Part shown: one piece after another, positions 14,983 through 29,093 of the stretch
How positions within the stretch are numbered: position 1 is the stretch's first letter
Layout of the letters: the number at the start of each line of letters is the position of its first letter
Assembly: GCA_030613505.1 (NCBI GenBank)
Contig: JAUWLW010000035.1
Span: forward strand, 1 to 30,425
Source of the DNA: Candidatus Zixiibacteriota bacterium
GTDB taxonomy: Bacteria > RBG-13-66-14 > B26-G2 > WVWN01
DNA: 30,425 bases
Direction of reading: 5' to 3'
Made by a program: the position numbers and the translations under genes
Notes under the pieces: model-generated
Told to the model about the DNA's origin: nothing
The model's input: the letters and a program-made list of their open reading frames with translations, nothing else
Databases searched by the model: none

Positions 14983-15750
14983 TTACTTGTACATCGCCTT
15001 AATTTTGCCCATCGACGACGGCGCGATGCCGACGTTGAGGATCGGGCAGTGTATGGTGTAAATTAAACCGCTGGTCCCGGCTACGAAGAGGTACTGGCCG
15101 TGATAGGTAATGCCGTAATTGTTGCCGGTGGGCTTGGTGAAAGAGGCCGCGAGCGAGCCGGTGGTGGTAAAGCCGTAGACGGTCGTGGTATTCATGCCGC
15201 CCCAGATGAGTTTGTTGCGCCAGTCGTACGCGATGTCGTACAACGCCTGGGAGACGGTGTGGGAACTCGCGATGCTGCCGGTGGTGGTCATGTAGTAGAT
15301 GGTCCGGGGGCTGCTGTAGCGGGAGATGATAATGCGGGTGACGCCCGCGCCGCCGTCGCCGGTGGCGAGGGGCGCGGAGCCGTGACATAAGGACGTCGGC
15401 AGGGCGTAGGAGGCGAAGATGCTACCGGTGGAGGTGTTGGTCCGGTAAATCCGGTAGGGGCTGTTATAACCTTGATTCTGCCAGAGGTTGCCGCCCCACT
15501 GGTAGGCGAGGCCGCGGGTTTGGGCCCCGCCGGCCGCGGCGAAGGAGTTGGACACGGACCCGGTCGTCGGGTTCATCACGTAGATCCTGGCCTGCGAGTA
15601 GTTGATCGAGTACAAGAGGCCGTTGCTCCGGGCCAACCCCGCGCAGGCGCCGCCCGGTATGGCGAAGGAGCGTACGACGGAACCAAGGTCGGCCAAGGCC
15701 ACGCCCGCAACGCACAACGTTAAAACGGCCACGATCAAACTTTTTCTCAT
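14983..15750 (-). CDS. secreted beta-propeller protein, C-terminally tagged (copy 1)
   Basis: This 255-residue protein has a Sec signal peptide (MRKSLIVAVLTLCVAGVALA). A repeated-strand domain follows with blades marked by [TS]-T-T-G-S-[IVL]-x-x-S, such as TTTGSIASS and TTTGSLAASF. The pattern suggests a six- or seven-bladed propeller. The chain ends with APSSMGKIKAMYK, the most divergent member of the shared C-terminal tag. It is one of four paralogues in tandem orientation between 14.9 and 18.6 kb. AGGAGA upstream and a promoter at 15812-15840 support the start. No enzymatic motif is visible. A surface or periplasmic binding role is inferred. Confidence 0.75.
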   Translation of the reverse strand: MRKSLIVAVLTLCVAGVALADLGSVVRSFAIPGGACAGLARSNGLLYSINYSQARIYVMNPTTGSVSNSFAAAGGAQTRGLAYQWGGNLWQNQGYNSPYRIYRTNTSTGSIFASYALPTSLCHGSAPLATGDGGAGVTRIIISRYSSPRTIYYMTTTGSIASSHTVSQALYDIAYDWRNKLIWGGMNTTTVYGFTTTGSLAASFTKPTGNNYGITYHGQYLFVAGTSGLIYTIHCPILNVGIAPSSMGKIKAMYK

Positions 15751-15811
15751 GTGACGTTCTCCTTTCGTGGTAATGTTCGTTTAATCCAGTAACCTTAATC
15801 CTTAGCGCGGC

Positions 15812-15840
15812 AAGGTAACAAATCAAACGCAACAAGTCAA
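15812..15840 (-). promoter_or_regulatory. candidate promoter, propeller copy 1
   Basis: TTGACT (15840-15835), 17 nt, TACCTT (15817-15812). The -35 is good and the -10 weak. The leader would be about 55 nt. The remainder of the 15751-15948 gap holds only the next gene's terminator. Confidence 0.45.
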
Positions 15841-15896
15841 GTTTTTTTATATATCGTACCGGCGGCCTGAGCCCCCCCCGACGCACGAAATCGGTT

Positions 15897-15924
15897 AAAG
15901 AAAAAAGGGAGCCTTACGGCTCCC
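15897..15924 (-). terminator. intrinsic terminator, propeller copy 2 (GGGAGCC type)
   Basis: GGGAGCC (15924-15918 on the minus strand) pairs with GGCTCCC (15913-15907) around a 4-nt loop, flanked by A and T runs. The same stem is used by copies 3 and 4. Confidence 0.9.
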
Positions 15925-15948
15925 TTTTCGGCGTCCGAATAACGTACG

Positions 15949-16686
15949 CTACCTGAACAACGCCTTGACCTTGCCTAAGGAGGCGGGTGCGATGCCGGTG
16001 AAATTCACCTTCGCGCGGATACATAAATTAGGCGAGCTGTAGTCGTGGTACCAGACGTAGTTGCCGTCCCAGGTAACGCCGGCGGGGCGCGCGCAGCCGG
16101 GGGTCGAGAAGGAGTCGATTACTGAGCCCATCGTCGTGCAGTAGTAGAGGAGCGGCGAGCCGGACCAGTTCGTCAGCCATAGGTACCCCGGAGCAACGTA
16201 GTCGACGCCGCCCGGGAAGGTACCCGGTTGCCGGAACGACCTGACCACGGAGCCGGTAGTCGTCATCGTATAGAGCATGTACGACCGCGCCGACGAATAA
16301 TACACGTACGTACCGTTTGAAGATATGCCGTAGCCCGCCGCCGGCGCCGTGAAGGACCTAGAGACGCTGCCGGTCGTCGTTAGCAACACGGCCGTGTACG
16401 GCGAATAAGTATTAACCCAGATATAGCCGCTGGGGGCGTGCGAGACTTCGACGCCCATTGAGCTCGCGACGGTGCGGATGGTCCGTACGAGGGAGCCGGC
16501 CGTGGTATAAACGTGGATCGTGTTATCCGAGTAGTTAGAGGTCGCGTAGAGGTAGCCGCCGGCGTACTCCAGGCCTTTGCGCCACGTCTTTTGAGATACG
16601 AAAGACGATACGACGCTGAGCGTACCCGCGAAAACCGACGTCGCCGTAAGAAGCACGATAGCCGTGAATACCAAACCCTTCTTCAT
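15949..16686 (-). CDS. secreted beta-propeller protein, C-terminally tagged (copy 2)
   Basis: The 245-residue paralogue of copies 1, 3 and 4 has a signal peptide (MKKGLVFTAIVLLTATSVFA). Its blades carry the [TS]-T-x-G-S-[VL]-x-x-[ST]-[FI] motif followed by a GYLW or YVWY strand. Four or more clear TTTGSV or TTAGSL units are seen. The C-terminus is IAPASLGKVKALFR. A strong GAGGAGG Shine-Dalgarno precedes the ATG. It has its own promoter (16740-16768) and terminator. Tyrosines and tryptophans at blade edges would suit carbohydrate or protein binding, but no ligand can be assigned. Confidence 0.78.
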   Translation of the reverse strand: MKKGLVFTAIVLLTATSVFAGTLSVVSSFVSQKTWRKGLEYAGGYLYATSNYSDNTIHVYTTAGSLVRTIRTVASSMGVEVSHAPSGYIWVNTYSPYTAVLLTTTGSVSRSFTAPAAGYGISSNGTYVYYSSARSYMLYTMTTTGSVVRSFRQPGTFPGGVDYVAPGYLWLTNWSGSPLLYYCTTMGSVIDSFSTPGCARPAGVTWDGNYVWYHDYSSPNLCIRAKVNFTGIAPASLGKVKALFR

Positions 16687-16739
16687 GACTTAATCCTCCT
16701 CGTTTAAATATCTCCGAGCCTACGTTTATACTTCACTAA

Positions 16740-16768
16740 TTAATAAGACATAAACTGCCGTATGTCAA
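16740..16768 (-). promoter_or_regulatory. promoter, propeller copy 2
   Basis: A perfect TTGACA (16768-16763) is followed after 17 nt by TATTAA (16745-16740). The leader is about 47 nt. The rest of the 16687-16896 gap is AT-rich with no ORF and holds the terminator of copy 3. Confidence 0.65.
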
Positions 16769-16850
16769 GGTTAATCCGCCGACCCGAAAAGAGACCGTAT
16801 CCCGGACACCGCCGTTCGTTCGACGCTAACGTAAACCAGCGTAACGAACG

Positions 16851-16873
16851 AAAAAGGGAGCCACACGGCTCCC
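16851..16873 (-). terminator. intrinsic terminator, propeller copy 3 (GGGAGCC type)
   Basis: GGGAGCC pairs with GGCTCCC around a 4-nt loop (16856-16862 with 16867-16873), followed on the minus strand by TTTTT. It has the same stem as at 15897-15924 and 17771-17794. Confidence 0.9.
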
Positions 16874-16896
16874 TTTTAAGTATCCGGCACTAATTG

Positions 16897-17655
16897 CTAC
16901 CTGAACAACGCCTTGACTTTGCCGATGGAGGCCGGCGCGACGCCGATGCCGCTCCACCTCATCTGGTAGACCCAGTCGTTGCCGCCGTCGACGAACCAGA
17001 CGTGCTTGCCGTCCCACGCCACGCCCGTCGGCCGGCGGCCTTGCATATACATGGAAAATACGACCGAGCCCGCGGTCGTCATCTGGTAGATAAAACCGCC
17101 GGCGGTGCTCGACTGCGCGAGCCACAAGTACGAGCCGCCCCAGTCGATGCCCTTGTTCAGGTAGCCCTCGCCGTGCGGCGCCTGGAAGGAAGAGACCACG
17201 GACCCCTTGGTCGTCAACTTGTACACGTAATTCCAGTAGTGGCTGCCGGCCGTCGAATACCACAGATGTTCGCCGTCGTACGTGACGCCGTAGCCGTGGG
17301 AGGGCACCACGAAACTCGTGGTTATGCTGCCGGCCTGGTTCACGCGGTATATGCGGTCGCGCGGAACTCTCGGCCAAAAAGAGTACACCCAATAGATGTA
17401 ACCGGTGAAGTCGACGCCGCGAGCGTACGCCGGCTCTTCCAGCGACGATACCAGCGAGCCGGCGGTAGTGGTCTTCAGAACCTCGCGCGGGCCGTTGAAG
17501 TTGGCGTGATATACGTACCCGCCGCGATAGTCGATGCCGTCGGTGCAGTCGTTGCAGGGCGATTCGAACGAGCGGATTATAGAGCCGCCCGTTGCCGCGG
17601 CGCCGCTCGCCAACGCGGTTATTAAAAACGCGATTGGAAGGCACTTTTTCACCAT
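16897..17655 (-). CDS. secreted beta-propeller protein, C-terminally tagged (copy 3)
   Basis: This paralogue has 252 residues from the ATG at 17655; a GTG at 17664 would add three residues. The signal peptide is MVKKCLPIAFLITALASGAAA. The mature chain opens with TGGSIIRSFESP, close to the TGGSVVASFRSP of copy 4. Blades carry TTAGSLVSS, TTKGSVVSSF and TTAGSVVFS followed by GVxWDGKHVWF-type strands. The C-terminus is VAPASIGKVKALFR. Its promoter is among the best in the window (TTGACC-N17-TATAAT) and it ends at a GGGAGCC terminator. Function is unknown beyond a secreted propeller. Confidence 0.78.
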   Translation of the reverse strand: MVKKCLPIAFLITALASGAAATGGSIIRSFESPCNDCTDGIDYRGGYVYHANFNGPREVLKTTTAGSLVSSLEEPAYARGVDFTGYIYWVYSFWPRVPRDRIYRVNQAGSITTSFVVPSHGYGVTYDGEHLWYSTAGSHYWNYVYKLTTKGSVVSSFQAPHGEGYLNKGIDWGGSYLWLAQSSTAGGFIYQMTTAGSVVFSMYMQGRRPTGVAWDGKHVWFVDGGNDWVYQMRWSGIGVAPASIGKVKALFR

Positions 17656-17693
17656 AGGCCTCACTACCTTAAACCTGCCATTTGCGCTGTTAA

Positions 17694-17722
17694 ATTATAG
17701 CACACCAGGCCCCGCGGGTCAA
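17694..17722 (-). promoter_or_regulatory. strong promoter, propeller copy 3
   Basis: TTGACC (17722-17717), exactly 17 nt, and a perfect TATAAT (17699-17694). The predicted leader is about 32 nt. Confidence 0.75.
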
Positions 17723-17770
17723 AGAGGAGCGGCCTAAGCCCTTGAATATTAATAATTTAGCCGAAAACCT

Positions 17771-17794
17771 AAAAAAGGGAGCCGCGCGGCTCCC
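17771..17794 (-). terminator. intrinsic terminator, propeller copy 4 (GGGAGCC type)
   Basis: GGGAGCC (17777-17783) pairs with GGCTCCC (17788-17794) around a GCGC loop, with TTTTTT following on the minus strand. Confidence 0.9.
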
Positions 17795-17818
17795 CTTTCG
17801 GCTTTTTTACGACTACCC

Positions 17819-18553
17819 TTATCGAAAAAGGGCTTTGACCTTGCCGAAGGACGCCGGCTCGACGGCGATCCCGCTTATCGTCATCCGGTAGCAATACTTC
17901 GGGTCGGCCATGCTGCTGTACCAGACGTATATGCCGTCGAAGGCGACGCCGTACGCCCGTCCCACCGGCGCCTTGAATTGCCACACCACGGAGCCCGTGG
18001 TGGTGAGTCGGTAAAGCGTCGAGCCGGCCGACGCGGCGTCCGCGAGCCACAGGTACCGGCCGTCCCAATCCAGGCCGGCGGTATTTTGCGCCGGCGCCGC
18101 GAAGGACGCGACGAGCGAACCGACGGTGGTCATTCTGTAAACGTAATCGGTGGTCGACGACGAAACCCACAGGTGCGTCGCGTCGAGGGTGATGCCGGTG
18201 GCGTTCGCCGGCGCCGGGAACGACGCCTCGATACTTCCGGTCGTATTAATCCTGTAGATAACGCCCGTCGCGGAGTACGTGCAGGTCCAGAAGTAGTGTT
18301 GGCCTCCCTCGACGTCGCGGGTGTCGCCGGGACAGGGGAACGACTTCACCACCGAGCCGTCGGCGTCGGTGGCGTAGATCGTGTTAGTCGTGTTCGATAC
18401 GTGGTACAGGCGGCTGTGCGGAGAGGCGTACGCCATTCCCCGCGGGACGCCCGCGGCGTGCGGCGAGCGGAACGACGCCACGACGGAGCCGCCGGTCGCG
18501 CCGGCGAAACTAGCCGCCGCCAAGGCGACGCCGACGATAATTAAGAACTTCAT
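17819..18553 (-). CDS. secreted beta-propeller protein, C-terminally tagged (copy 4)
   Basis: The 244-residue paralogue has a signal peptide (MKFLIIVGVALAAASFAGA). Blades are marked by TTNTIYATDADGSVVKSF, NTTGSIEASF, TTVGSLVASF and TTTGSVVWQF, each followed by a DxxxLW or DGRYLW strand. The C-terminus is VEPASFGKVKALFR. AAGGA precedes the ATG. Unlike copies 1-3 it has no obvious promoter of its own: comM ends only 48 nt upstream on the same strand with no terminator between, so it may be transcribed by read-through. It is the member with the clearest repeat register. Confidence 0.78.
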   Translation of the reverse strand: MKFLIIVGVALAAASFAGATGGSVVASFRSPHAAGVPRGMAYASPHSRLYHVSNTTNTIYATDADGSVVKSFPCPGDTRDVEGGQHYFWTCTYSATGVIYRINTTGSIEASFPAPANATGITLDATHLWVSSSTTDYVYRMTTVGSLVASFAAPAQNTAGLDWDGRYLWLADAASAGSTLYRLTTTGSVVWQFKAPVGRAYGVAFDGIYVWYSSMADPKYCYRMTISGIAVEPASFGKVKALFR

Positions 18554-18601
18554 TACTATTCCTTGCCGCCTCCACGTGTTTAAGTAACGGTTTTCGTCGT
18601 C

Positions 18602-20137
18602 CTAAGCCCACGCCTGGCGGTCGAGAGTGCGATACTGTATGGCCTCGGAGACGTGCCCCGCGGCCAGCGCCTCGTCGCCGGCCAGGTCCGCGATGGTCCG
18701 CGAGAGCTTCAGAACGCGGTGGTACGCCCGCGCCGTCAGGCCCAGCTTCTCGATGGCGGTGCGTATCAAATTCTCACCCTCGTCGTCGGGCCGGCACCAT
18801 TGCTCGACGTCGCGCGTCGTCATCCGCGCGTTGCAGTAGATGTTCCGGCCGGCGAAGCGCCGCCGTTGGACGTCGCGGGCGCGGTTGACGCGGTCTCTTA
18901 TCATAGCCGACGGCTCGCCCCGTCGCTCGTCGGTCAGCTCCTTGTAGCGCACCGCCGGGACCTCGAGGTGTATGTCGATGCGGTCGAGGAGCGGCCCCGA
19001 TATGCGGTTGAGGTATGCCTGAATTTGGTGCGGCGAGCAGCGGCACCGTCGCGACGGCGAGCCCAACCAGCCGCACGGGCACGGGTTCATCGCCGCCGCC
19101 AGCATGAAGCGCGACGGGAACGACAGCGACATCTTGGCCCGCGATATCGTGACGACGGCGTCCTCCAACGGCTGGCGCAGGACCTCCAGCGCGGGCCGCC
19201 GGAACTCGGGCAGCTCGTCCAGGAAGAGGACGCCGTTGTGCGCCAGCGAGACCTCCCCCGGCCTGGGGATGGAGCCGCCGCCCACCAACCCCGCCTCGGA
19301 TACGGTGTGGTGCGGCGCGCGGAAGGGCCTGGCCGCGACCAGCGCCCGCTCCTTGGGCAAAAGCCCCGCCACCGAGTACACCTTCGTCGTCTCGAGCGCC
19401 TCCTCCAGCGACATATCCGGGATAATGGTGGGGAGGCGCTTGGCGAGCATGGTCTTACCGGACCCCGGCGGCCCGAGCATCAGGACGTTGTGGCCTCCGG
19501 CCGCGGCTACCTCCAACGCGCGTTTGGCGTGTTCTTGGCCTTTAACGTCCGAGAAGTCGGCCACGTACGCCTGGGCGGTGTCGAAGGCCGCGCTCAAGTC
19601 CACCCGCCACGGCGCTACGTCGCCGTCGCCGGCCAGGAAATCCGCGGCCTCTTTGAGGGACTCGACCGGTATGACGTCGACGCCCTCCACCACCGCGGCC
19701 TCGTTGGCGTTGGCCGCCGGGACCAGCAGGCCGCGGCAGCCCAGGTCCCGGGCGCACACCGCGACCGGCAGCGCTCCCCGCACCGACCTGACCGCGCCGT
19801 CCAGCGCCAGCTCGCCCACCACCAGGTAGTCGCCGTCGCGGCCGAACTCCAATTTGCCGTCGGCGGCCAACATCCCCAGCGCGATGGGCAGGTCGAAGGA
19901 GGGCCCCTCCTTGCGCACGTCGGCGGGCGCGAGGTTCACGGTCCACTTCCTCCACCCCACGGGCAGGCCCGAGTTCTTGAGCGCGGCCTGGACGCGGTCG
20001 CGGGACTCCTTGACGGCGGCGTCCGGCAGGCCGACGACGGCGAAGAGGTTCTGGACGCCGCGGCCGGCGTCTACCTCCACCTCCACCTTATACGCGTCGA
20101 TGCCCAAAAGGCCCGCGGATATGATTTTAGCGTGCAC
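18602..20137 (-). CDS. comM: YifB/ComM-family Mg chelatase-like AAA+ ATPase
   Basis: ComM is a hexameric branch-migration helicase that helps integrate incoming DNA during natural transformation; many non-competent bacteria also keep it. The 511-residue chain has the N-terminal Lon-protease-like fold (VVGLPDAAVKESRDRV, then APADVRKEGPSFDLPIALG). The AAA+ core follows, with Walker A GPPGSGKT at 222-229 and Walker B VLFLDE at 303-308. The zinc-finger-like insert NPCPCGWLGSPSRRCRCSP and the C-terminal helical domain (LTARAYHRVLKLSRTIADL) are present. Length is standard. The GTG start at 20137 is preceded by GGGAGAGA. Copy-4 propeller follows 48 nt downstream. Two decayed copies of this gene's 5' end lie near 21.7-21.9 kb. 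Confidence 0.95.
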   Translation of the reverse strand: MHAKIISAGLLGIDAYKVEVEVDAGRGVQNLFAVVGLPDAAVKESRDRVQAALKNSGLPVGWRKWTVNLAPADVRKEGPSFDLPIALGMLAADGKLEFGRDGDYLVVGELALDGAVRSVRGALPVAVCARDLGCRGLLVPAANANEAAVVEGVDVIPVESLKEAADFLAGDGDVAPWRVDLSAAFDTAQAYVADFSDVKGQEHAKRALEVAAAGGHNVLMLGPPGSGKTMLAKRLPTIIPDMSLEEALETTKVYSVAGLLPKERALVAARPFRAPHHTVSEAGLVGGGSIPRPGEVSLAHNGVLFLDELPEFRRPALEVLRQPLEDAVVTISRAKMSLSFPSRFMLAAAMNPCPCGWLGSPSRRCRCSPHQIQAYLNRISGPLLDRIDIHLEVPAVRYKELTDERRGEPSAMIRDRVNRARDVQRRRFAGRNIYCNARMTTRDVEQWCRPDDEGENLIRTAIEKLGLTARAYHRVLKLSRTIADLAGDEALAAGHVSEAIQYRTLDRQAWA

Positions 20138-20209
20138 TCCGTCTCTCCCTGATTAATTAAAGGTTAACGGCAAAACGGCCGTCGCCCAACTCGCTTCGCA
20201 CCCCGGGCG

Positions 20210-21565
20210 CTACTGCGGCGCGACCCTCCAGCCCGCCTTCCCGAAGAGCAATTTTATCAACAAGAGTAGGACCGCGGCGTAAACTAGTATCGCCGCAGCC
20301 GCTATTCCACGGTAATGGTACGCCACGGCGGCGACCGCGGCCCCCCACAGATTGCTCGTAACTACGGACAATAACACCCCGCCCGATAGAAGGGCAATAC
20401 AAAACGTTTTTAATACCCCCCGATAGACGAACGTTTTCAACGCGTAAACCGCCGCCATAAAGGGTACTACTAAAACGACGTAATGCGCGTCCCAAGCGAA
20501 AGGCGATATCAACGCGGCGGCCGTTACGACCAACGAGAAGTACAAATTATCGACGGCAGCCACTCGTACTTCGTCGGGCCCGGCCGCCGACATCCGCCGG
20601 CGTAAAAAGCCCAAAACGAATAAAAGCGCGACCACCGCGGCCGTAACGAACTTGATGACTGGTTTTGCCGCCGCGACGTCAAGGGGCTCCTCCGCGGGGC
20701 AGAACCCCAAGAATTGGCAACCCCGGTAGACAAACGCGCCCAGCGATTGGTTCCCCTCCACGCGGTAGACGAAATCCTCCACCATCCCCGCGCGGACTAC
20801 CCGCCACTGCCACTCCCGAACAAGCTCGGCGTTCCGGCCCCAGCCGGTAAAGCTGGCGGGCGCGAGGAAGAGTAAAACGGCCGTGGCCACGGCTATCGCC
20901 ACGGCGGCGTACCGGCGCCGAGTAAGGAAATATAAAAAAATTAGCGCCGGCGTGATTTTAATGGCGCACGCGCAACCCAGGAGCAAACCGGCGGCCAGCG
21001 GTTTACCGCGCCGATCGAAATACACCGCCAGAACCACCAACGCCCATAGGTAAACGTTGATCTGCCCCAGCTGTAAATTCAATACCCAGAAAGGCGCCGT
21101 CGCGAAGAAAGTAATCACCAAAACGGAATCGATCTTGCCCCGCTTAATTCGGGCCCATTGCTCCCCCGCCCAGGGCATCAACGCTCGAGCCGGATTAACC
21201 AGTAAATAATAAGTAACGCCGAATAAAACAACGAGCGAAACGACGTTCCCCGCATACCATATCGCCGCCGCCACCGTCCGCGGCAAGAGCGAGACCGGGT
21301 ACATCGCGACCGCGAAGAACGGCGGGTATATGTAACCGTCCAAGACGTACGTGTATAGGTCCGCGTCCTCAAAGACGCGCTCCCCGGCCCAATAATACCA
21401 GTGGAAATCGGCCCATCGGCTCTTCGAGATAACATTTACCGAACCTAAAACCAATATTACGACAATGAGGATTAATACAAGGGACTTGGCCACCCTCGCC
21501 CAGACGCGCCGGGGCCGTCGCGCCGTCGCTCCCGCCGCCGCGTTTTCACCGTATTTTTTCACCAT
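20210..21565 (-). CDS. GT87-family polyprenyl-linked glycosyltransferase
   Basis: This 451-residue integral membrane protein resembles GT-C fold glycosyltransferase family 87 (DUF2029), which uses polyprenyl-phosphate sugars on the periplasmic side. About ten hydrophobic helices are seen. The first large loop has the acidic WADFHWYYWAG motif and the following YPPFFAVAMYP. QLGQINVYLWALVVLAVYFDRRGKPLAAG and IKITPALIFLYFLTRRR are typical GT87 blocks. The ATG at 21565 (MVKKYGEN) is chosen because GGAG lies 8 nt upstream; the longer frame needs a TTG at 21598. It could extend cell-envelope glycans or glycolipids. The acceptor is unknown. Confidence 0.8.
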   Translation of the reverse strand: MVKKYGENAAAGATARRPRRVWARVAKSLVLILIVVILVLGSVNVISKSRWADFHWYYWAGERVFEDADLYTYVLDGYIYPPFFAVAMYPVSLLPRTVAAAIWYAGNVVSLVVLFGVTYYLLVNPARALMPWAGEQWARIKRGKIDSVLVITFFATAPFWVLNLQLGQINVYLWALVVLAVYFDRRGKPLAAGLLLGCACAIKITPALIFLYFLTRRRYAAVAIAVATAVLLFLAPASFTGWGRNAELVREWQWRVVRAGMVEDFVYRVEGNQSLGAFVYRGCQFLGFCPAEEPLDVAAAKPVIKFVTAAVVALLFVLGFLRRRMSAAGPDEVRVAAVDNLYFSLVVTAAALISPFAWDAHYVVLVVPFMAAVYALKTFVYRGVLKTFCIALLSGGVLLSVVTSNLWGAAVAAVAYHYRGIAAAAILVYAAVLLLLIKLLFGKAGWRVAPQ

Positions 21566-21663
21566 ACGCCGGACTCCAAAACCGGAAACCTCGCCCAAGA
21601 AAACCCGTATTTATGGTAATTACATAATACGGCCCGGGCAGCCGCCGTTTAGCGTCCCCTTCT

Positions 21664-21716
21664 ACCTCGTAAGGATTCACGCCCGGCCGGCCCGTTGATA
21701 TAACCTCGGCGCGCAT
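21664..21716 (-). pseudogene. decayed copy of the comM 5' end (fragment A)
   Basis: An ATG at 21716 opens M-R-A-E-V-I-S-T-G-R-P-G-V-N-P-Y-E-V-E. It aligns with the start of ComM (M-H-A-K-I-I-S-A-G-L-L-G-I-D-A-Y-K-V-E) with the same spacing, then diverges. The frame runs on into the GT87 start region and is unlikely to encode a functional protein. Confidence 0.5.
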
Positions 21717-21850
21717 CCTCGCTCTCGGCGAACCCGTCAAAAGGTCTCGCCGACGCAGTCGGCTATTTCGCGCGACCGCCAATACGCGGAATGGACCGCC
21801 GGGAACTTCTCCCGCAGGTCGACGCACCGGTCGACGACGACGCGCTCGCC

Positions 21851-21883
21851 GTCCACCTCAACCTCCACTTTATACGCGTCGAT
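21851..21883 (-). pseudogene. second copy of the comM 5' coding sequence (fragment B)
   Basis: These 33 bp match comM codons 13-23 (20069-20101) at 30 of 33 positions, reading I-D-A-Y-K-V-E-V-E-V-D in the same frame. The frame continues about 36 residues to a stop near 21738 with no comM similarity and no obvious start codon. With fragment A it fills most of the 293-bp gap 21599-21891, where I see no other gene. Confidence 0.6.
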
Positions 21884-21891
21884 GGCCTTTT

Positions 21892-22851
21892 TTACCGCGC
21901 GCCGCCGGCGCTTACGTTCACCGGGTAGGTATATCCGCCGGCGATACCCTCCCGGGCGTTTAGATGCGCGGAAAGGAACTGGCCGCAGTTACTACCGATG
22001 TGGTTCTCCTCCGCCTCGCCGATACTCACGATAACGTCGAACCCGGCGGCCCGAAGGTCCCGCACGACGGCGGCCTCTCCTTCCGGCGGCGAGGAGGAGA
22101 GGTAAGATCTTAACCCGTGCCGCTGCGCGCGGTAGGTCGGATTGAGAGGCGTTATCTTAACGAGAAACTTACCCGGGTCAAAGATACGGACCAGGACAGC
22201 CGGGTCGAGCGACGAACCCTCCGCCAACGCGAAGTTCAACGTAACCTTCCGGTCGCCCGGTTCGTAAAACTCCTCGCCGTACGCGGCCACGTCCGCCAAG
22301 GACCACTTTTTTATAGGGACCAACCGGTCGCGCAATTCCTCGTCCGTTGTATGGATCGAGAATTGCAACTGGAAGTTCCCGTCCCGATAATGCCCCCGTT
22401 TAACGGCCAGGAGCCCCTCCCAAAAACGGTCCGCCCCCGCCGGCGCGACCGAGGATAGCGCGGGCAAAAGGCCGGGGGCGCGGTACCGGCGCGGCAGCTC
22501 CTCCAGGACGTCGAGGACGGCCGCGTTGAGCGCCGGCTCTCCCAAACGGGCGAACTGGATCTTGAATTTTTTTACGGGAACGTCGCCCCCCGGGAAATGT
22601 TTTCGGACCAGGAAGTCGACCTGCGCCAGGACCTCCGCCGCCGACAACTTCCCCCGGTAATGATTTCCCGCGTCGCACATCAGACAGCCCACCGGACACC
22701 CGAAGAGCGTCGATACGATCAATACCCACTTCTCCTCGCGGGATAACGGCGGTTGAACGGCCTCGACGAATTCGACCAGCTTCCCCGGTCCGAACTCGGC
22801 GACGTACGCCGTAGCCAGGTCCGGCCGGCCGCAGGTGGCTACGACCTTCAT
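21892..22851 (-). CDS. RlmN-like radical SAM protein
   Basis: The 319-residue protein has the radical SAM cluster motif CPVGCLMC (C-x3-C-x2-C; Cys52, Cys56, Cys59). Its layout is RlmN/Cfr-like: QFARLGEPALN, FSIHTTDEELRDRLVPIKKW, a VTLNFAL strand, KITPLNPT, and a C-terminal SNCGQ with Cys289 at the place of the RlmN methyl-carrying cysteine (ACGQL). The second RlmN cysteine, expected in the strand before the cluster motif (TLCVSS in E. coli), is replaced: the aligned sequence is VLIVST. An ordinary 23S rRNA A2503 methylase activity is therefore doubtful. Its start overlaps the upstream flavoprotein stop as ATGA, suggesting a redox partnership. Confidence 0.8.
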   Translation of the reverse strand: MKVVATCGRPDLATAYVAEFGPGKLVEFVEAVQPPLSREEKWVLIVSTLFGCPVGCLMCDAGNHYRGKLSAAEVLAQVDFLVRKHFPGGDVPVKKFKIQFARLGEPALNAAVLDVLEELPRRYRAPGLLPALSSVAPAGADRFWEGLLAVKRGHYRDGNFQLQFSIHTTDEELRDRLVPIKKWSLADVAAYGEEFYEPGDRKVTLNFALAEGSSLDPAVLVRIFDPGKFLVKITPLNPTYRAQRHGLRSYLSSSPPEGEAAVVRDLRAAGFDVIVSIGEAEENHIGSNCGQFLSAHLNAREGIAGGYTYPVNVSAGGAR

Positions 22852-23738
22852 CGCGGCACCCCCTCCCGGCGGCGGTAGATTTTCAACGCTGCCCGGACGC
22901 CGTCGCCCGCGGCGATCGCGGCCTGCCGTAGATCGCCGTTCCGGACGTCGCCGACGAAATAGAGCCGGCCCTCCGCCTCGAGGCGGGGCGCGTTTTCGTC
23001 CAGTCGCTTCGAGACGAAACGGCGCTCGGGTTCACGGCCGAGGGCGAACAGGACGTAATCGGCGTCGATCGTCTCTTCCCCCGTCGGGCCCGAACACTTC
23101 ACGCCGACGAATCCCTCTCCCCCGACTTCGAATCCCGAAACCTCCGTACGGACCCGGTAATCAATACGCGGCGCCCGGGCCGCTCGCTCCTCCAGAAGCG
23201 GAAGGCACCTCGCCTCGCCTCGCCGGTTCAGGATAAAGACGTCGTTGCTCCGCGCCAGGTTGAGCGCGTAGTCGAAGGCGGCGTCCCCGGCGCCTACGAT
23301 CACGACCTTCTTCCCGCCGACCTCGGCGATAGGATAAACTTCGTAAAAAACCTTGCCCTCGACGTCGGGAGGGACAGGAACAGTATTAAAACGTTTGGGC
23401 CTCGTCCCGGAGGCCACTATTAATACCTTGCACCGGCACGCCCCCGCCGAGCTCTCGAGCCGGAACAAGCCGTCGTCGACGTCGGCCGAGGTAACTTCCT
23501 CGCGACGGACCTCCACCTCGTGCGAGGCGAGATGTTCCTCCAAAAGGTCCGCCAGCTCGCCTCCCGCCACGCCGCCCGGAAAGCCGGGGTAGTTCTCGAG
23601 GCGGAAGGCGTTTCGCACCAGGCCGCCGACGCGGTCCCTCTCGAAAAGCAGCGGTTCGATCCCGCACCGCCGGAGCTGGACCGCCGCCGCAACGCCCGCC
23701 GGGCCGCCGCCTACGATAATAACGTCATTACTATTCAT
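22848..23738 (-). CDS. thioredoxin-reductase-like flavoprotein lacking the CxxC pair
   Basis: This is a 296-residue two-dinucleotide-domain FAD/NAD(P)H oxidoreductase of the TrxR/ferredoxin-NADP reductase type. FAD motifs are GGGPAG at 10-15 and VGDVRNGDLRQAAIAAGDG near the C-terminus; the NAD(P)H motif is GAGDAAFDYA at 149-158. In thioredoxin reductase a CATC redox pair precedes the NADPH motif. The aligned residues here are YEVY (132-135), so both cysteines are tyrosine. It probably passes electrons to something other than thioredoxin, such as a ferredoxin or the co-encoded radical SAM protein. It overlaps the latter by 4 bp and starts 1 nt after the SIR2-TPR stop. Confidence 0.85.
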   Translation of the reverse strand: MNSNDVIIVGGGPAGVAAAVQLRRCGIEPLLFERDRVGGLVRNAFRLENYPGFPGGVAGGELADLLEEHLASHEVEVRREEVTSADVDDGLFRLESSAGACRCKVLIVASGTRPKRFNTVPVPPDVEGKVFYEVYPIAEVGGKKVVIVGAGDAAFDYALNLARSNDVFILNRRGEARCLPLLEERAARAPRIDYRVRTEVSGFEVGGEGFVGVKCSGPTGEETIDADYVLFALGREPERRFVSKRLDENAPRLEAEGRLYFVGDVRNGDLRQAAIAAGDGVRAALKIYRRREGVPR

Positions 23739-23739
23739 T

Positions 23740-25413
23740 TTACGACGGGGTACCCCAAGCCGGGAATTTATCTAAAACGTCGGCCTCTTCTTCCTCGGCT
23801 ATTACGCGCGCGAGGGTTTCTAATAATTCGGGCTCCGGGTGCCCGTCCTCTTTGGCGCGGGACACGTTCAAAGAAAGGTCCCACCCCTGCGAACGGACGC
23901 CTTCGACGATAAGCGACTTTAAATGCTTTAAATTGGCTAGGCGTTCTTTTTCGTCGGCGGTATGCGCGTAATTATAAAAACGGCACTCTAAAATCAAAAG
24001 CGGTTCTTCGGTAAGCTCCAAAGCCCGCGCAAGAAAATCGAGACCTTCCGCGGATTTCCCGGTTCCGAGTAAAAAACCCGCGTAATTGCCGAGGTTGTTG
24101 GCGTGGTTGGGCTCGGCTTCTATCGCCCGCTTATAATACTCCTCCGCGCCGTCGTAATCCTTGCGGATATTTTCTAGGAAAAACGCGTAGTTGCCTGGGT
24201 AGTCGGCGTCGTTCGGCTCAGCCACAACCGCACGCTTGTAATATTCCTCCGCGCCGTCGTAGTCCTTACGGATACTATCTAGGAAAAGCGCGTAGTTGCC
24301 CATCAATTCGTGGCTATCCGGGAACTTTCCGATACCCGCCCGGTAAATTTCGTCGGCGCGATCCGAATCCGATTCCTGGTATTTTCTCGCCTCTAACTCT
24401 ACAGCCCACCAATCTTTGGCCTGCTTTATTACTTTATCAATAGCGACTTCCAAAGCTTCCTTATCTTCGGAACCGGGTGAGCTCGCGACTTTAACTTGTA
24501 ACTTTTCGAAACTACTCCGGTAATTACCGAACAAATCGGCGAAACGCTTCTCCTCCGGGTGTTCTAATCCGAACTCGCCCCAAAGAAGAAGCATAAACTC
24601 GTCGAAATCTTGGTGCTTAACCCAGATAGCATCGCGTTCTTCTAACCAATCGCCAACGTCGCCTTCCGGAATTTGTTTATTTACCCAATAAATACCCCAC
24701 GGTAAAGACCCTGGTGATAACTCCCTCAATAATTCGGCAATACTTTTATCTGCGCCCCCATAACCAAGAAAGATTAAACCGGTTTCCGTAAGTAACGTTT
24801 TAAGTACTTTTTTTACCGCTTCGTCGAGCCTTTCAGTCTCTACCTCTAAGTTCTTCGGCGCGAGCCTCGCGTCGCCGTGTAATTTCATAACCAACGGCCC
24901 GGTACGGGTAATTTTTACGAACCCAATTAGAGACTCGTGAGCAATAACTAAAGGTTTTTTATTAGTATATAAATAAAGGGCGTCGGCCACGAGATCGTCG
25001 AAATTCGTCGTGAGAATAACGTTGCAACTCCGGCAATATTCCTCGTGACTCATGAATTTTGCGACTACTGCGTATCCGAACGCCGGGTCTTTACCGGCGC
25101 AAATACTCTCTATCTCGGTTTGCCTTTCCGCGGCCGTAATAAATAAATCCTCTATTACTTTCCCGTATATCGCCGTCGGGTTTGACCCGTCGTAATCTTC
25201 GTAATAACCCTCCGCCCATTCTTCTGCTCCGCTTTCATTGCCCGTTTTTATCCTCTTTAACTTCGGCAACCACTTTTTTACAAGACTGCCTGCCCCTGGT
25301 ATCCCGGAAGACACCGAACACCCGGCGCCCAAGAAAAACGCGAATTTGCTATCGCCGCATTCGACCGCGGCGCTAAGACGCCTGACGCATTCGTGCGCGC
25401 TTATTTCTCTCAT
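23740..25413 (-). CDS. SIR2-like NADase with TPR repeats, candidate defence effector
   Basis: The 557-residue protein has an N-terminal SIR2-family Rossmann domain: FFLGAGCSVSSGIPG (about 26-40), LTTNFDDL (catalytic-type Asn), LHGDAR (catalytic-type His) and FLGYGGAD. This is the pattern of SIR2 domains in anti-phage NADases (ThsA, DSR, Avs5-like) rather than of zinc-containing deacetylase sirtuins: no four-cysteine zinc site is present. The C-terminal part contains TPR-like repeats, two of them nearly identical (KDYDGAEEYYKRA-[VI]-x-AEPN). The ATG at 25413 is chosen because GGAGG lies 6 nt upstream; the ATG at 25419 abuts GGAGG directly. Composition is AT-richer than the downstream redox genes. 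Inference: infection-triggered NAD+ depletion, with TPRs as sensor or partner surface. Confidence 0.82.
   Translation of the reverse strand: MREISAHECVRRLSAAVECGDSKFAFFLGAGCSVSSGIPGAGSLVKKWLPKLKRIKTGNESGAEEWAEGYYEDYDGSNPTAIYGKVIEDLFITAAERQTEIESICAGKDPAFGYAVVAKFMSHEEYCRSCNVILTTNFDDLVADALYLYTNKKPLVIAHESLIGFVKITRTGPLVMKLHGDARLAPKNLEVETERLDEAVKKVLKTLLTETGLIFLGYGGADKSIAELLRELSPGSLPWGIYWVNKQIPEGDVGDWLEERDAIWVKHQDFDEFMLLLWGEFGLEHPEEKRFADLFGNYRSSFEKLQVKVASSPGSEDKEALEVAIDKVIKQAKDWWAVELEARKYQESDSDRADEIYRAGIGKFPDSHELMGNYALFLDSIRKDYDGAEEYYKRAVVAEPNDADYPGNYAFFLENIRKDYDGAEEYYKRAIEAEPNHANNLGNYAGFLLGTGKSAEGLDFLARALELTEEPLLILECRFYNYAHTADEKERLANLKHLKSLIVEGVRSQGWDLSLNVSRAKEDGHPEPELLETLARVIAEEEEADVLDKFPAWGTPS
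24128..24337 (-). repeat. 105-bp tandem coding repeat (TPR units)
   Basis: Two adjacent 105-bp units (35 residues each) within the SIR2-TPR gene are highly similar, differing mostly at third positions. This implies a recent duplication of one TPR-like unit. Confidence 0.75.
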
Positions 25414-25507
25414 TGCCATCCTCCGCTAACGAAGAAATACTACTCACCCCGGTTATTTTGAAGTTACCGAAACCGACCGGAAATCCGTTTCGGGATTTAC
25501 TACGGCT

Positions 25508-25592
25508 CTAGGCGAAATCGAAACCGCGCTCCCGCGAAAAAGCCGTCGCCTCCTCGAGCGTCGGAATGCCGGCGCGGCCGGCAAGGCGACTA
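25508..25592 (-). pseudogene. duplicate 3' tail of the PfkB kinase gene
   Basis: On the minus strand this reads G-R-A-G-I-P-T-L-E-E-A-T-A-F-S-R-E-R-G-F then D-F-A-stop. It matches the last 22 residues of the neighbouring PfkB protein at 19 of 22 positions. No upstream part of a kinase gene accompanies it; the sequence before it is the small membrane ORF. It is a remnant of a second kinase copy or a partial 3' duplication. With the small ORF it explains most of the 25414-25754 interval; nothing else is seen there apart from the SIR2 upstream region. Confidence 0.75.
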
Positions 25593-25739
25593 GTTATTAA
25601 GGCGCCGCCGGATCCTCTCGCTCAAACGAGGAAACAGAACCTGCGTGACGAAGAGGACGACGCCGGCGGCCGCCATCAAAACGTACGCGATTAAGGCCAA
25701 CGCCACGAGTCCCTGTAGCGTTCGCACCAAAGCGATCAT
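25590..25739 (-). CDS. small membrane protein (49 aa)
   Basis: An ATG at 25739 opens 49 residues with one long hydrophobic stretch (about residues 10-36, LVALALIAYVLMAAAGVVLF) followed by a basic tail (PRLSERIRRRLNN). It lies 15 nt after the PfkB stop on the same strand and is probably co-transcribed. The Shine-Dalgarno is weak (GGTGA very close to the ATG). Its stop codon overlaps the start of the duplicated pfkB tail. Nothing indicates a function. Confidence 0.5.
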   Translation of the reverse strand: MIALVRTLQGLVALALIAYVLMAAAGVVLFVTQVLFPRLSERIRRRLNN

Positions 25740-25754
25740 ATCACCAAAACCCGC

Positions 25755-26699
25755 TCAGAATTCGAAGCCTCTTTCTCGCAAAAACGCCGTCGCCTCCTCG
25801 AAGGTAGGAATACCGGCGCGGCCGCCCAGCCGCCGACACTTCATCGCCGCCACCGCCGAGGCGAAGGTCATGCAGGTCTTGAAGTCCCAACCCTTGAGAA
25901 TGGCGACGTCGAGCGCGCCGTGGAAGACGTCCCCCGCGCCGGTGGTATCGACCACCGGGTCCACCTTGAAGGCCGGGACCTCGAAGAACTCCTCGCCGTC
26001 CAGGCCCGCGGCGCCCCGCTCGCCCAGCGTCACGCCCGTGTACGACGGCCCCGTCTCGGTTAGGGCGCGGCACGCCGCCTCCCAGTCGCGGTGGCCGAAC
26101 ATCTTCTCGGCGAAGACGCGGCTGACGACGGCGACGTCGGCTCGAGCCAAAAGCTCTAGCGAGCCCTCCTTGACCGAGCCGGCGTCGTAGACCACGACGC
26201 CCCCCGCCATCTTACACTCGTCGGCGAAGCAGATGGCCGCGTCCATATCGTACCCGTCTACGTGGAGTATTTTGCACTCCCGCGCCGTCTCGTGGCGGAG
26301 GCGGTCGCACGTGGCCTCGGCCAGCTCGCCTCGACCCGAGACGACGGTGCGCTTCCCGGTCGCCCGGTCCACCAACACCAGCGATATTTGCGATTGCGTG
26401 GCCGGGTGCACGACCTCGCCGCGCACGTCGACGCCCTCGCGCTTGAACTCGTCGATTATGAACCGGCCGGCGAAGTCGTCGCCCACCTGGCCCGCGAACG
26501 CGACGCTAAGGCCCATACGCGCGCAAACGGCGAGCGCCGTCCCCACGGGCCCGCCGCCCTGGCGGTCCATCTCCAGCGCGTGAATCTTTTCGTCGAGCGC
26601 CGGCAGCCGCTCCACGACGGCGACGACGTCCATCGCGGCACAGCCCATGCCGACGACGTCGAACTCCTTGCCACGGGACGGCGTCCACGGAAGCTTCAT
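25755..26699 (-). CDS. PfkB-family carbohydrate/nucleoside kinase
   Basis: This 314-residue ribokinase-fold kinase phosphorylates a sugar, nucleoside or related alcohol with ATP. The N-terminal PfkB signature region is seen as GGGPVGTALAVCARMG (48-63) with GQVGDDFAG (70-78). The C-terminal signature is DTTGAGD (251-257), with Asp257 as the catalytic base. The fold and length are standard. AAGGGG lies 8 nt upstream of the ATG, and a TATAAT promoter sits just beyond. Substrate cannot be assigned. A copy of its last 22 codons occurs about 250 bp downstream. Confidence 0.92.
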   Translation of the reverse strand: MKLPWTPSRGKEFDVVGMGCAAMDVVAVVERLPALDEKIHALEMDRQGGGPVGTALAVCARMGLSVAFAGQVGDDFAGRFIIDEFKREGVDVRGEVVHPATQSQISLVLVDRATGKRTVVSGRGELAEATCDRLRHETARECKILHVDGYDMDAAICFADECKMAGGVVVYDAGSVKEGSLELLARADVAVVSRVFAEKMFGHRDWEAACRALTETGPSYTGVTLGERGAAGLDGEEFFEVPAFKVDPVVDTTGAGDVFHGALDVAILKGWDFKTCMTFASAVAAMKCRRLGGRAGIPTFEEATAFLRERGFEF

Positions 26700-26725
26700 T
26701 CAAACACCCCTTAAAATTATGACGT

Positions 26726-26754
26726 ATTATAATAGAAGGGAGGGCAAGGCACAA
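26726..26754 (-). promoter_or_regulatory. promoter of the PfkB gene
   Basis: TTGTGC (26754-26749), 17 nt, and a perfect TATAAT (26731-26726). It is divergent from the promoter at 26780. Confidence 0.6.
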
Positions 26755-26779
26755 GGCCGGAGTAAGCGTCAAATAGCCT

Positions 26780-26808
26780 TTGACACGTACGCCCCCCGAT
26801 GGTAAAAT
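26780..26808 (+). promoter_or_regulatory. promoter of the 26851-27977 operon
   Basis: A perfect TTGACA (26780-26785), 17 nt, then TAAAAT (26803-26808, 5 of 6). The leader is about 36 nt. Confidence 0.75.
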
Positions 26809-26850
26809 GTAAGGTACTAAAGAAGCGGATTACGAGAAAGGCGGCACAAG

Positions 26851-27231
26851 ATGTTAAGTATAAAAAAATCGTTGGCGTACGCCACGATGATTTCCGTAGC
26901 GGCGGGCGGCTTTATCGTCGCGGGAGCCCCCGCGGCGTCGGCGGCCACCGGCCCCCCGCAACCGTACGAAGAACCCTCGGAAGGTATAGCGGTCCCCATC
27001 TTCGGCCTAATCGCCATCGCCGGCATCGCAACCGTCGCGATATGGCAAGGCGTCAAAGACGCCAAGAAGAAGAAACAAGTCCAACGCGAGAAAGAAGAAG
27101 AGTTGACGGAGCAAGAGAAGTTCGAGGAATATTTCGACTTCGGGCCCGAGGAACTCGACGCCGCGGAGGCGGCGAACCCTAAGAGTACGGCGGCCCCGGC
27201 GGAACCGGCGGCAGCGGCCACCGGCGAATGA
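26851..27231 (+). CDS. exported/membrane protein with charged tail, unknown function
   Basis: This 126-residue protein has a signal-peptide-like N-terminus (KKSLAYATMISVAAGG, possible cleavage near AASA, residue 32). A second hydrophobic helix (IAVPIFGLIAIAGIATVAIW, about 46-66) is followed by a lysine/glutamate-rich stretch likely to form a helix or coiled coil (KDAKKKKQVQREKEEELTEQ). It ends in an alanine/proline-rich tail. It would sit in the inner membrane with the charged part probably cytoplasmic. The last codon overlaps the next gene as ATGA, so it is translationally coupled to the lipoprotein propeller. I recognise no family. Confidence 0.7.
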   Translation: MLSIKKSLAYATMISVAAGGFIVAGAPAASAATGPPQPYEEPSEGIAVPIFGLIAIAGIATVAIWQGVKDAKKKKQVQREKEEELTEQEKFEEYFDFGPEELDAAEAANPKSTAAPAEPAAAATGE

Positions 27232-27977
27232 AGAGAGGTGCCAGTAGTTACGCCCTCGCCTGCAGCGCGGCGTTAACGTCGGCGTTGTTGGTGGGTTGCG
27301 CGTCGGCCCCGAGCGCGCCCGACGTTCAGAAAAGGACTTCGTATTTCCGCGTCGTCCAGCGCTTCAAAACGCCGGGCAAAGGGCTGGCGGATATAACGTA
27401 CGCCAAACGGCATGTCTGGGTCGCCGACGAGGAAGGCGCCGGCCTGATATACAAAATCGACCCGAGTACGGGCTCCGTCCTCTCTTCCGTAACGCCGAGG
27501 TACGGTCCGCCTTCGGCGTTGTGCACCGACGGCGCGTACCTCTACGTAGCGCACGGCGTCACGGGCGACGTCTACCGGCACGTGCTCGAGCCCCGGCTGA
27601 GAGAGCTCACCCACTTCTCCACCGGCCTAGCCGACGTCCGCGGCATGTACTTCGACGCCGGCAACTTCTACGTCTTCGACCAGGCCACGCGGGGGATGTA
27701 CGAGTTCGACGCGGAATGGAAACCCGGTCGCTCGTGGCGCGTCGGCCGGGAGGACGAGACAATAAGGGGGTTGACGAAGGCCGACGGCCGCGTCTGGTCC
27801 GCGGACTGGCGCGACGGGTGGCTCAACCGGCACCGCGTCGTAGGTTTCGACGTCGACCGCAAATTCTGCGCGCCGGGGTGGCATCCGGCGGGGCTCGCCT
27901 GGGACGACGGCTACCTCTTCGTGGGCGATACCGGCTCGCGGCGGATCTACAAGTTGCAATTGAATGCCCGGGAGTGA
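27228..27977 (+). CDS. lipoprotein with beta-propeller fold
   Basis: The 249-residue protein has a lipoprotein signal with lipobox LVGC (Cys24). The mature part has blade-like strands (HVWVADEEGAG, GAYLYVAHG, NFYVFDQATRG, GYLFVGDTGSRRIYKLQ) resembling an NHL/YncE-like propeller. It is an anchored relative of the secreted propellers in this window, but it ends NARE without the GKVKALFR-type tag. It is coupled by ATGA to the membrane protein upstream. It may be a periplasmic or outer-membrane scaffold. No catalytic motif is seen. Confidence 0.72.
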   Translation: MKRGASSYALACSAALTSALLVGCASAPSAPDVQKRTSYFRVVQRFKTPGKGLADITYAKRHVWVADEEGAGLIYKIDPSTGSVLSSVTPRYGPPSALCTDGAYLYVAHGVTGDVYRHVLEPRLRELTHFSTGLADVRGMYFDAGNFYVFDQATRGMYEFDAEWKPGRSWRVGREDETIRGLTKADGRVWSADWRDGWLNRHRVVGFDVDRKFCAPGWHPAGLAWDDGYLFVGDTGSRRIYKLQLNARE

Positions 27978-28050
27978 ACCGCGGTTAAAGCGTTTGAGCT
28001 GCGGCGGCAGCCAGTTGGAATTGATGCCCGCCCGCCGGGCCGAATATAGG

Positions 28051-28078
28051 TTGACATAAAACAGGGCCGTGATAAAAT
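28051..28078 (+). promoter_or_regulatory. promoter of the NHL-repeat gene
   Basis: A perfect TTGACA (28051-28056), 16 nt, then TAAAAT (28073-28078, 5 of 6). The leader is about 43 nt. The rest of the 27978-28127 gap shows no gene. Confidence 0.65.
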
Positions 28079-28127
28079 ATATCGAGGATAATATTCGCCG
28101 TAAAGACCTCAACAGGGAGAAAGGCCT

Positions 28128-29093
28128 ATGATACGCTTAGCGACCTTATTAACGACATTATCGTTGGTTGTTGCCGGGCCGGTTTCGGGCGTTTGGGAAT
28201 ATAAGGGCCAATTTGGAAAGCGCGGCCAGGGACAAGGCGAATTCCAAATCCCCTTCGGCGTCGATTGCTCGAGCCTCGGAGACGTATACGTCGCCGATTC
28301 CACGAACAACCGCATCCAGTATTTCTCCGAGAACGGCATACCCCGCGGCTTGTGGGGTAAACCCGGGTCCGGCAGCGGCGAATTCCGCGAGCCGGTCGGC
28401 GTCGCCGTAGCGCCCAACAGCGACGTATACGTTACGGACCGCCGCAACCACCGCGTGCAATACTTCACGCCAATCGGTTCGTACAAAGGGAGGTGGGGCT
28501 CGTCGGGTTCCGGAAACGGCTACTTCAATTTCCCGGGGGGGATCGACGTCGCGCCCGACGGCAGAGTGTACGTCGCCGATACCAACAACCACCGCATCCA
28601 GTACTTCAGCTCCACCGGCTCTTACCTCGGCAAGTGGGGTGCGTTTGGGACCGGCTCCAAGGAATTCAATAGCCCCTGGGGCGTAGCGGTGGCCCCCAAT
28701 ACCAACGTCTACGTGGCCGACACCTTCAACGACCGCGTCCAATACTTTAACCGGACCGGCGATTATCTCGGCAAATGGGGAAGGAAAGGGACGGGAAAGG
28801 GAGAATTCGACAGGCCCGTGAGCGTAACGGTCGCGGCCAACGGCAACGTCTTCGTCGTCGACAGCGGCAACCACCGCATCCAATACTTCACCGCCGACGG
28901 CAAGAAGGTCCTCGGCGAATGGGGCAAGTTCGGAAGCGGCAACGGCGAATTCAACAGCCCGGGCGACATCGCCATAATGGCCGCCCGGGGGTTCATCTCC
29001 GACCGAAACAACGACCGCGTCCAGTATTTCGACGACACGGCATACGCGGTAGAACCCGCCTCCTTGGGACGGGTCAAGGCCTTGTTTAAGTAA
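28128..29093 (+). CDS. secreted six-bladed NHL-repeat protein, C-terminally tagged
   Basis: The 321-residue protein has a short signal peptide (MIRLATLLTTLSLVVAG). Six NHL repeats follow, each of the form GEF-x-x-P-x-G-[IV]-x-VAP-x-x-x-VYVAD-x-x-N-[HD]-R-[IV]-QYF, making a six-bladed propeller. NHL domains bind proteins, RNA or carbohydrates; no enzymatic site is evident. The sequence ends VEPASLGRVKALFK, the same tag as the four TTTGS-type propellers at 15-18.5 kb although the blades belong to a different repeat family. It has its own promoter and a bidirectional terminator. Confidence 0.88.
   Translation: MIRLATLLTTLSLVVAGPVSGVWEYKGQFGKRGQGQGEFQIPFGVDCSSLGDVYVADSTNNRIQYFSENGIPRGLWGKPGSGSGEFREPVGVAVAPNSDVYVTDRRNHRVQYFTPIGSYKGRWGSSGSGNGYFNFPGGIDVAPDGRVYVADTNNHRIQYFSSTGSYLGKWGAFGTGSKEFNSPWGVAVAPNTNVYVADTFNDRVQYFNRTGDYLGKWGRKGTGKGEFDRPVSVTVAANGNVFVVDSGNHRIQYFTADGKKVLGEWGKFGSGNGEFNSPGDIAIMAARGFISDRNNDRVQYFDDTAYAVEPASLGRVKALFK

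Follow-up and report, generated by a model that had tools for sequence, protein, structure and literature searches.

In the type IX secretion system (T9SS), cargo enters the periplasm through Sec, its C-terminal domain is taken by SprA together with a PorV-type shuttle, and the protein is released or attached outside the cell (PMC12618676, PMC10994853). According to reviews, T9SS signals are folded domains of 70–100 residues or more, in contrast to the short ones that other systems use, and the T9SS occurs in Bacteroidota and related phyla of the Fibrobacterota–Chlorobiota–Bacteroidota (FCB) group (PMC11285876, PMC10202324). Here we describe a 12-residue C-terminal peptide, the tag, which is shared by five secreted beta-propeller proteins encoded in a window of 30,425 bases that constitutes one whole contig (C71) of a 2.86 Mb draft genome; the source genome belongs to the lineage of Candidatus Coatesbacteria. 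The tag is well supported as a C-terminal targeting signal, and we argue that it is probably read by the T9SS. A word search of the open-access literature on short T9SS signals, alone and together with candidate phyla, turned up no account of the motif.

A conserved peptide directly before the stop codon

An earlier reading of the window, made from its sequence only, had claimed the tag and a Sec signal peptide for each of the five proteins. Inspection of the translations places all five tags correctly, and signal peptides are found on all five. The four propellers on the minus strand end in GIAPSSMGKIKAMYK, GIAPASLGKVKALFR, GVAPASIGKVKALFR and AVEPASFGKVKALFR, and the NHL propeller on the plus strand ends in AVEPASLGRVKALFK. 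The tags and the genes that carry them are as follows.

14983–18553, minus strand: cluster of four genes for secreted propellers that all have the tag and a Sec signal peptide
14986–15021, minus strand: tag of propeller 1, PSSMGKIKAMYK, C-terminus of gene 14983–15750
15952–15987, minus strand: tag of propeller 2, PASLGKVKALFR, C-terminus of gene 15949–16686
16900–16935, minus strand: tag of propeller 3, PASIGKVKALFR, C-terminus of gene 16897–17655, whose start is possibly a GTG at 17664
17822–17857, minus strand: tag of propeller 4, PASFGKVKALFR, C-terminus of gene 17819–18553
28128–29093, plus strand: tagged secreted NHL propeller (PF01436, E 1.2e-39)
29055–29090, plus strand: tag of the NHL propeller, PASLGRVKALFK, C-terminus of gene 28128–29093

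The tag core, searched across the 2.86 Mb genome as the 27-base pattern G-[KR, or N/S/Q/H]-[IV]-K-A-x-[FY]-x-stop, has 101 matches, versus none for the reversed pattern used as a control. Dropping the stop codon from the pattern adds no match; all 101 core copies end at a stop and none is internal to any frame, the reverse of the random placement that would have spoken against a sorting signal. Chance origin is ruled out by the reversed-pattern controls and by the pattern without the stop. About 95 of the 101 matches terminate open reading frames (ORFs) of useful length, with a few terminating very short, broken-looking frames. The consensus drawn from 88 proteins, [AG]-[VI]-x-P-[AST]-S-[LV]-G-[RK]-[VI]-K-A-L-[FY]-[RK]-stop, extends beyond the search pattern, with V or I at position -14 in 86/88, P at -12 in 87/88 and S at -10 in 86/88 (98–99%). 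Selection acts on the tag peptide and not on the DNA, because third codon positions vary freely; the serine at -10 has codons of the TCN as well as the AGY type, and each of the three stops is in use. TAG terminates 42 of 95 tags, and is a normal stop in this genome.

The tag lies outside the propeller fold

The fourth propeller and the NHL protein were modelled with AlphaFold from 35–36 related sequences each; the propeller bodies have predicted local distance difference test (pLDDT) values of 90–99 and the tags values of about or below 50. In the fourth propeller (17819–18553), residues 226–244 lie outside the propeller at a pLDDT of ~50, with a low-confidence short helix at residues 236–243, and in the NHL protein (28128–29093) the pLDDT of residues 307–321 is below 50. 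Foldseek confirmed the propeller of 17819–18553, with glutaminyl cyclase 3nol as the best match in the Protein Data Bank (E 5e-11), and untagged lipoprotein homologues stop exactly at the last propeller strand. The models show the tag not to be part of the predicted propeller fold; completion of the last blade, which would have counted against a sorting role, is seen in neither.

Three further propeller genes of the window bear on the tag.

27228–27977, plus strand: lipoprotein propeller without the tag, a natural contrast
1936–2964, minus strand: N-terminally membrane-anchored propeller without the tag, a natural contrast
30172–30425, plus strand: 5' part of a further secreted NHL propeller with a signal peptide, cut by the contig end at 30425, with its C-terminus beyond the contig

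The first two lack the tag, as had been noted from the sequence, and so does the giant FG-GAP protein at 7217–13807. This secreted protein of 2,196 residues has FG-GAP-like repeats followed by many tandem repeats of ~100 residues. In frame past the stop of the untagged lipoprotein propeller, positions 27978–27998 encode T-A-V-K-A-F-E, which may be a decayed remnant of the tag and is too short for certainty.

Most tagged proteins have signal peptide-like N-termini, and they belong to several families

NHL repeats are matched by 28 of the 88 tagged proteins, and many others match weak propeller models; the remaining carriers include YCF48-like proteins, InhA-type MAM proteins and several unassigned folds. 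The sequence-only reading had described the tag as shared across different folds, which does not hold for the five proteins of the window, where both blade families are of the beta-propeller fold class, and does hold genome-wide through the non-propeller carriers.

Signal peptides and lipoboxes were called by simple in-house rules. The signal-peptide rule, a crude one that calls too many of the controls positive, finds a signal peptide-like N-terminus in 74 of 87 tagged proteins of the genome versus 65 of 170 other ORFs, with the untagged controls here and below drawn only from the analysed genome stretches and not from the full proteome. This count had been proposed from the sequence alone as a check on the sorting signal. 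In the wider Coatesbacteria set, 244 distinct tagged proteins comprise 211 with N-termini typical of signal peptidase I (SPI) substrates and no lipoproteins, versus 217 SPI-like proteins and 13 lipoproteins among 653 untagged ORFs (p 2e-4). A weak lipobox-like match on two tagged NHL proteins was judged spurious, and a stricter lipoprotein rule does not call these two.

None of the 88 tagged proteins matches the NCBIfam and Pfam models of the type A T9SS signal (TIGR04183, PF18962) or of the type B signal (TIGR04131, PF13585), and a locally built type A model finds no such domain in 239 tagged ORFs. Models of C-terminal sorting signals (CTERM) are absent from the NCBIfam matches of the 88, where the ScyF matches fall on the NHL repeats of that model, and no residues lie beyond the tag motif as they do in PEP-CTERM and LPXTG signals. 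A known named signal was rejected on these grounds.

Tag loss in lipoprotein paralogues

The contig WVWN01000065.1 of a related genome (loci L117 and L128) codes for four related NHL propellers that have a lipobox followed by an acidic, proline-rich linker (..VVLLGAC-EESPTEPPKPE..). These tandem lipoprotein genes (L117:989–4866 and L128:6276–7226) have an in-frame stop ahead of a decaying tag: each protein ends ..QYFKKRD at a TAG stop, and the old tag stands behind it, intact in one (AVAPASLGRVKALFR), altered in two (AGAPAYLGRVKALFR, AIAAALPGRVKALFS) and frameshifted in the fourth. Lipoprotein NHL propellers at L110 and L068 end at the last strand without the tag, as judged by inspection. Among NHL relatives of the SPI type the tag is mostly still present (55 strict matches and about seven near variants, the latter by inspection). 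By sequence comparison, gain of a lipid anchor coincides with loss of the tag, which is what one would expect of a tag that acts solely on proteins set free in the periplasm.

Distribution and the W-form

The same tag is present in relatives, namely Candidatus Coatesbacteria (CP070633.1, CP070755.1, JAUVZD01) and the metagenome-assembled genome A-C077 (WVWN01), which is filed as Zixiibacteriota. A loosened tag pattern was searched over 386 genomes, 372 of them outside the phylum. Within the phylum there are 82–127 tags per genome in the same genus, 12–24 in the order and class, and 0–4 in the other family. Outside the phylum W mostly replaces L, giving [TS]-W-G-x-[IV]-K-[AST]-[LMI]-[FY]-[RK]-stop, and 15 of the 372 genomes, in eight families, have multiple tags (4–47 each). 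Genome G014 has two matches, one of which is a 27-residue chance frame, and was moved to the single-tag class. Searched without the stop codon, the pattern has 285 matches in 16 genomes outside the phylum (G014 included), of which 245 nonetheless end at a stop. A signal-peptide-like start is present on 24 of the 29 W-form proteins that were read from other phyla.

About 20 further genomes code for exactly one tagged protein, mostly of 140–175 residues with a signal peptide, and also have SprA. The body of this protein is Ig- or fibronectin-like by reading of its sequence, with no Pfam match. In the three genomes with an identified upstream gene (L071, L196 and L197), the upstream neighbour of the single-copy tagged gene is porD (DUF4835, NF052317) of the T9SS. 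The genes at L071:1123–1527, L196:1098–1529 and L197:1098–1529 code for tagged proteins of ~134–143 residues (..TWGSIKAMFR) directly downstream of porD and have no family model; the single-copy protein looks like an unrecognised T9SS-associated protein. Single matches in the SprA-negative genomes G171, G183 and G331 were rejected as true tags, being very short chance ORFs. The SprA-negative genome G021 has a single L-form match on a long frame that is open at the locus edge, and single matches in three others (G132, G217 and G285) are at loci that were not read.

Association with type IX secretion

A search for SprA_N found 107 positives among the 386 genomes and none among 14 control genomes. 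Outside the phylum SprA is present in 15 of 15 multi-tag genomes versus 81 of 357 others (p 6e-10), and by family in 8 of 8 multi-tag families versus 61 of 245 others (p 2e-5). All 14 genomes of the phylum have it; two seeming exceptions, G002 and G004, were missed by the Pfam model and are matched in broken frames by the SprA query from the source genome at E = 0. SprA is a candidate for the co-occurring transporter that the sequence-only reading had proposed to look for. That reading had also noted the lack of a processing enzyme or translocon; this is correct for the window, but elsewhere the genome encodes a candidate translocon, a SprA of 1,953 residues (TIGR04189, E 3.7e-93, above cut-off). 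The interpretation of the tag as a sorting, export or anchoring signal is supported.

PorV-family proteins are present in all 38 genomes tested; the source genome has ten of them, together with 48 canonical type A signals. Type A domains are found in 55 of 55 SprA-positive genomes tested, tagged or not, and the tag is therefore an addition to type A and not a replacement for it. The PorV family is enlarged, with 6–21 copies in nearly all SprA-positive genomes of these phyla versus 3–4 in G216 and G346, the two with the strongest SprA match. At L156:3812–11797 (G000:C76), two TolQ/ExbB-like genes and a TolR-like gene come after sprA and might code for a motor other than PorL/PorM; upstream and divergent from sprA are two tagged NHL propellers, one with the variant ..PVSLGKIKALFE.

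Some comparisons bear on exchange between the two signals. The passenger of tagged proteins in G004 ends in ..VSGDDLADLQANADAAMDSYP.., matching ..VAGANLAELQANADAAYDKYW.. in G003 (24 residues, 62%), where it stands ahead of a fibronectin-like segment and a type A domain; this sequence match is a weak hint of tag and type A interchange. In a domain-swap comparison, NHL relatives from tag-poor families with readable C-termini have neither the tag nor a type A domain.

A proposed minimal T9SS signal and its alternatives

We consider it rather likely that the tag represents a short export signal of a new kind, placed at the C-terminus and probably recognised by the T9SS; this route rests on co-occurrence. 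Tagged cargo would enter the periplasm via Sec and signal peptidase I; there a surface shuttle of the SprA/PorV translocon, one of the ten PorV-family proteins, would bind the exposed tail and draw its cargo across the outer membrane, in the way that PorV handles the type A domain of 70–100 residues. The tag would be a new, minimal class of T9SS signal used alongside type A. Such a minimal tail is proposed because the extreme C-terminus of type A matters: RgpB is trapped on loss of two C-terminal residues, and mapping of HBP35 placed its signal in the final 22 residues of the domain (PMC11285876, PMC5445135). Type B cargo uses shuttles of the PorP/SprF family (PMC12618676), and the translocon therefore accepts different signals.

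Several points weigh against this proposal. Co-occurrence of the tag and SprA may reflect shared ancestry of the lineages and not function; co-occurrence by family is not independent evolution, and the families may cluster in few phyla. The tag is dispensable for a functioning T9SS, since many SprA-positive genomes lack it and type A domains occur in each of the tagged genomes that were tested. Known T9SS signals are folded domains of 70–235 residues (PMC11285876, PMC12618676), and published descriptions give the PorV/SprA pocket a size that suits such domains (PMC10994853); a tail of 12 residues would have to bind in a different way or use a different shuttle. The analysis identified no dedicated shuttle or processing enzyme for the tag, and the domain-swap comparison of NHL relatives gave nothing, leaving the 24-residue passenger match as the only link between tagged and type A proteins.

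Four other explanations were considered. That the tag is a DNA-level repeat or an assembly artefact that happens to end genes would fit the many verbatim copies of GGCCGCGTGAAGGCGTTGTT, but it can scarcely be right given the free third codon positions, the two serine codon families at -10 and the three stops, and other phyla encode the same peptide with other codons; it was rejected on codon usage. A structural tag closing the last propeller blade is very improbable and was likewise rejected: most tagged proteins are propellers (with the NHL matches noted above) and the tag comes after the last strand, but both AlphaFold models place it outside the fold at low pLDDT, untagged homologues end at the last strand, and non-propeller proteins, including W-form ones, also end in the tag.

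Two explanations remain. The tag could be read by a separate outer-membrane export or anchoring system with its own receptor, spread across several phyla and distinct from the co-resident T9SS. Its dissimilarity to type A, B and C domains, the lack of any NCBIfam or Pfam signal model matching the 88 proteins, and the wide variation in tag counts among SprA-positive genomes (0 to 127) would suit such a system. We nevertheless regard it as unlikely, as the association with SprA is one-sided and strong, both in the 15 multi-tag genomes outside the phylum and in the phylum once its exceptions were resolved; the single-copy tagged gene adjoins porD in three genomes, and no other translocon candidate turned up, though no systematic search for one was made. 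Rather improbable, too, is a role in retention or assembly instead of export, in which a basic amphipathic tail would attach proteins to a surface partner or membrane after their export. An amphipathic helix is possible from the sequence, with L, V, L and F on one face and K/R on the other, AlphaFold models a low-confidence short helix at residues 236–243 of the fourth propeller, and lipoprotein paralogues, having another anchor, drop the tag; against this, tagged proteins lack type A or any other known export signal, which would leave export itself unexplained, and the specific G-x-[IV]-K-A core exceeds what a generic membrane helix needs.

If the proposal of a T9SS-read tag is true, a 12-residue T9SS tail would show that a folded domain is not essential and would point to the part of the signal read by the translocon. 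It would also provide a portable tag for surface display, and one small model would suffice to find, and so to localise, many proteins of uncultured phyla that have no annotation. Should the tag belong to another machine, it would expose an unnamed secretion pathway.

Comparison with known C-terminal signals

The closest counterpart is the T9SS type A signal (TIGR04183, PF18962). Like it, the tag is C-terminal, sits on Sec/SPI cargo, occurs many times per genome, co-occurs with SprA and has a hydrophobic-basic tail end, and both signals are present in the source genome. Type A is a folded Ig-like domain of ~70–100 residues with five motifs, whereas the tag is ~12–15 residues, is not folded alone in the models and matches no part of the type A model. 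Type A also tolerates a C-terminal extension (PMC11285876), in contrast to the tag, which is flush with the stop in the source genome. Type B (TIGR04131) and type C (cl41395) resemble the tag in being alternative T9SS signals beside type A, and they show that different shuttles allow the translocon to take different signals (PMC12618676, PMC10202324). They differ in their length of ~100 residues or more, and genes for type B cargo often have a porP/sprF gene as neighbour.

In PEP-CTERM, LPXTG, GlyGly-CTERM and similar sortase-type tails, the motif is accompanied by a hydrophobic membrane helix and a basic end. Like them, the tag is a short conserved stretch at the very C-terminus of proteins with signal peptides, but it has no membrane helix and nothing after the motif. 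The outer-membrane beta-signal, as in C-termini of the beta-barrel assembly machinery (BAM)/DegS type, similarly has an aromatic residue near the C-terminus of exported proteins; unlike it, the tag is carried by soluble propellers and other folds, has a basic last residue and is built on a G-x-[IV]-K core.

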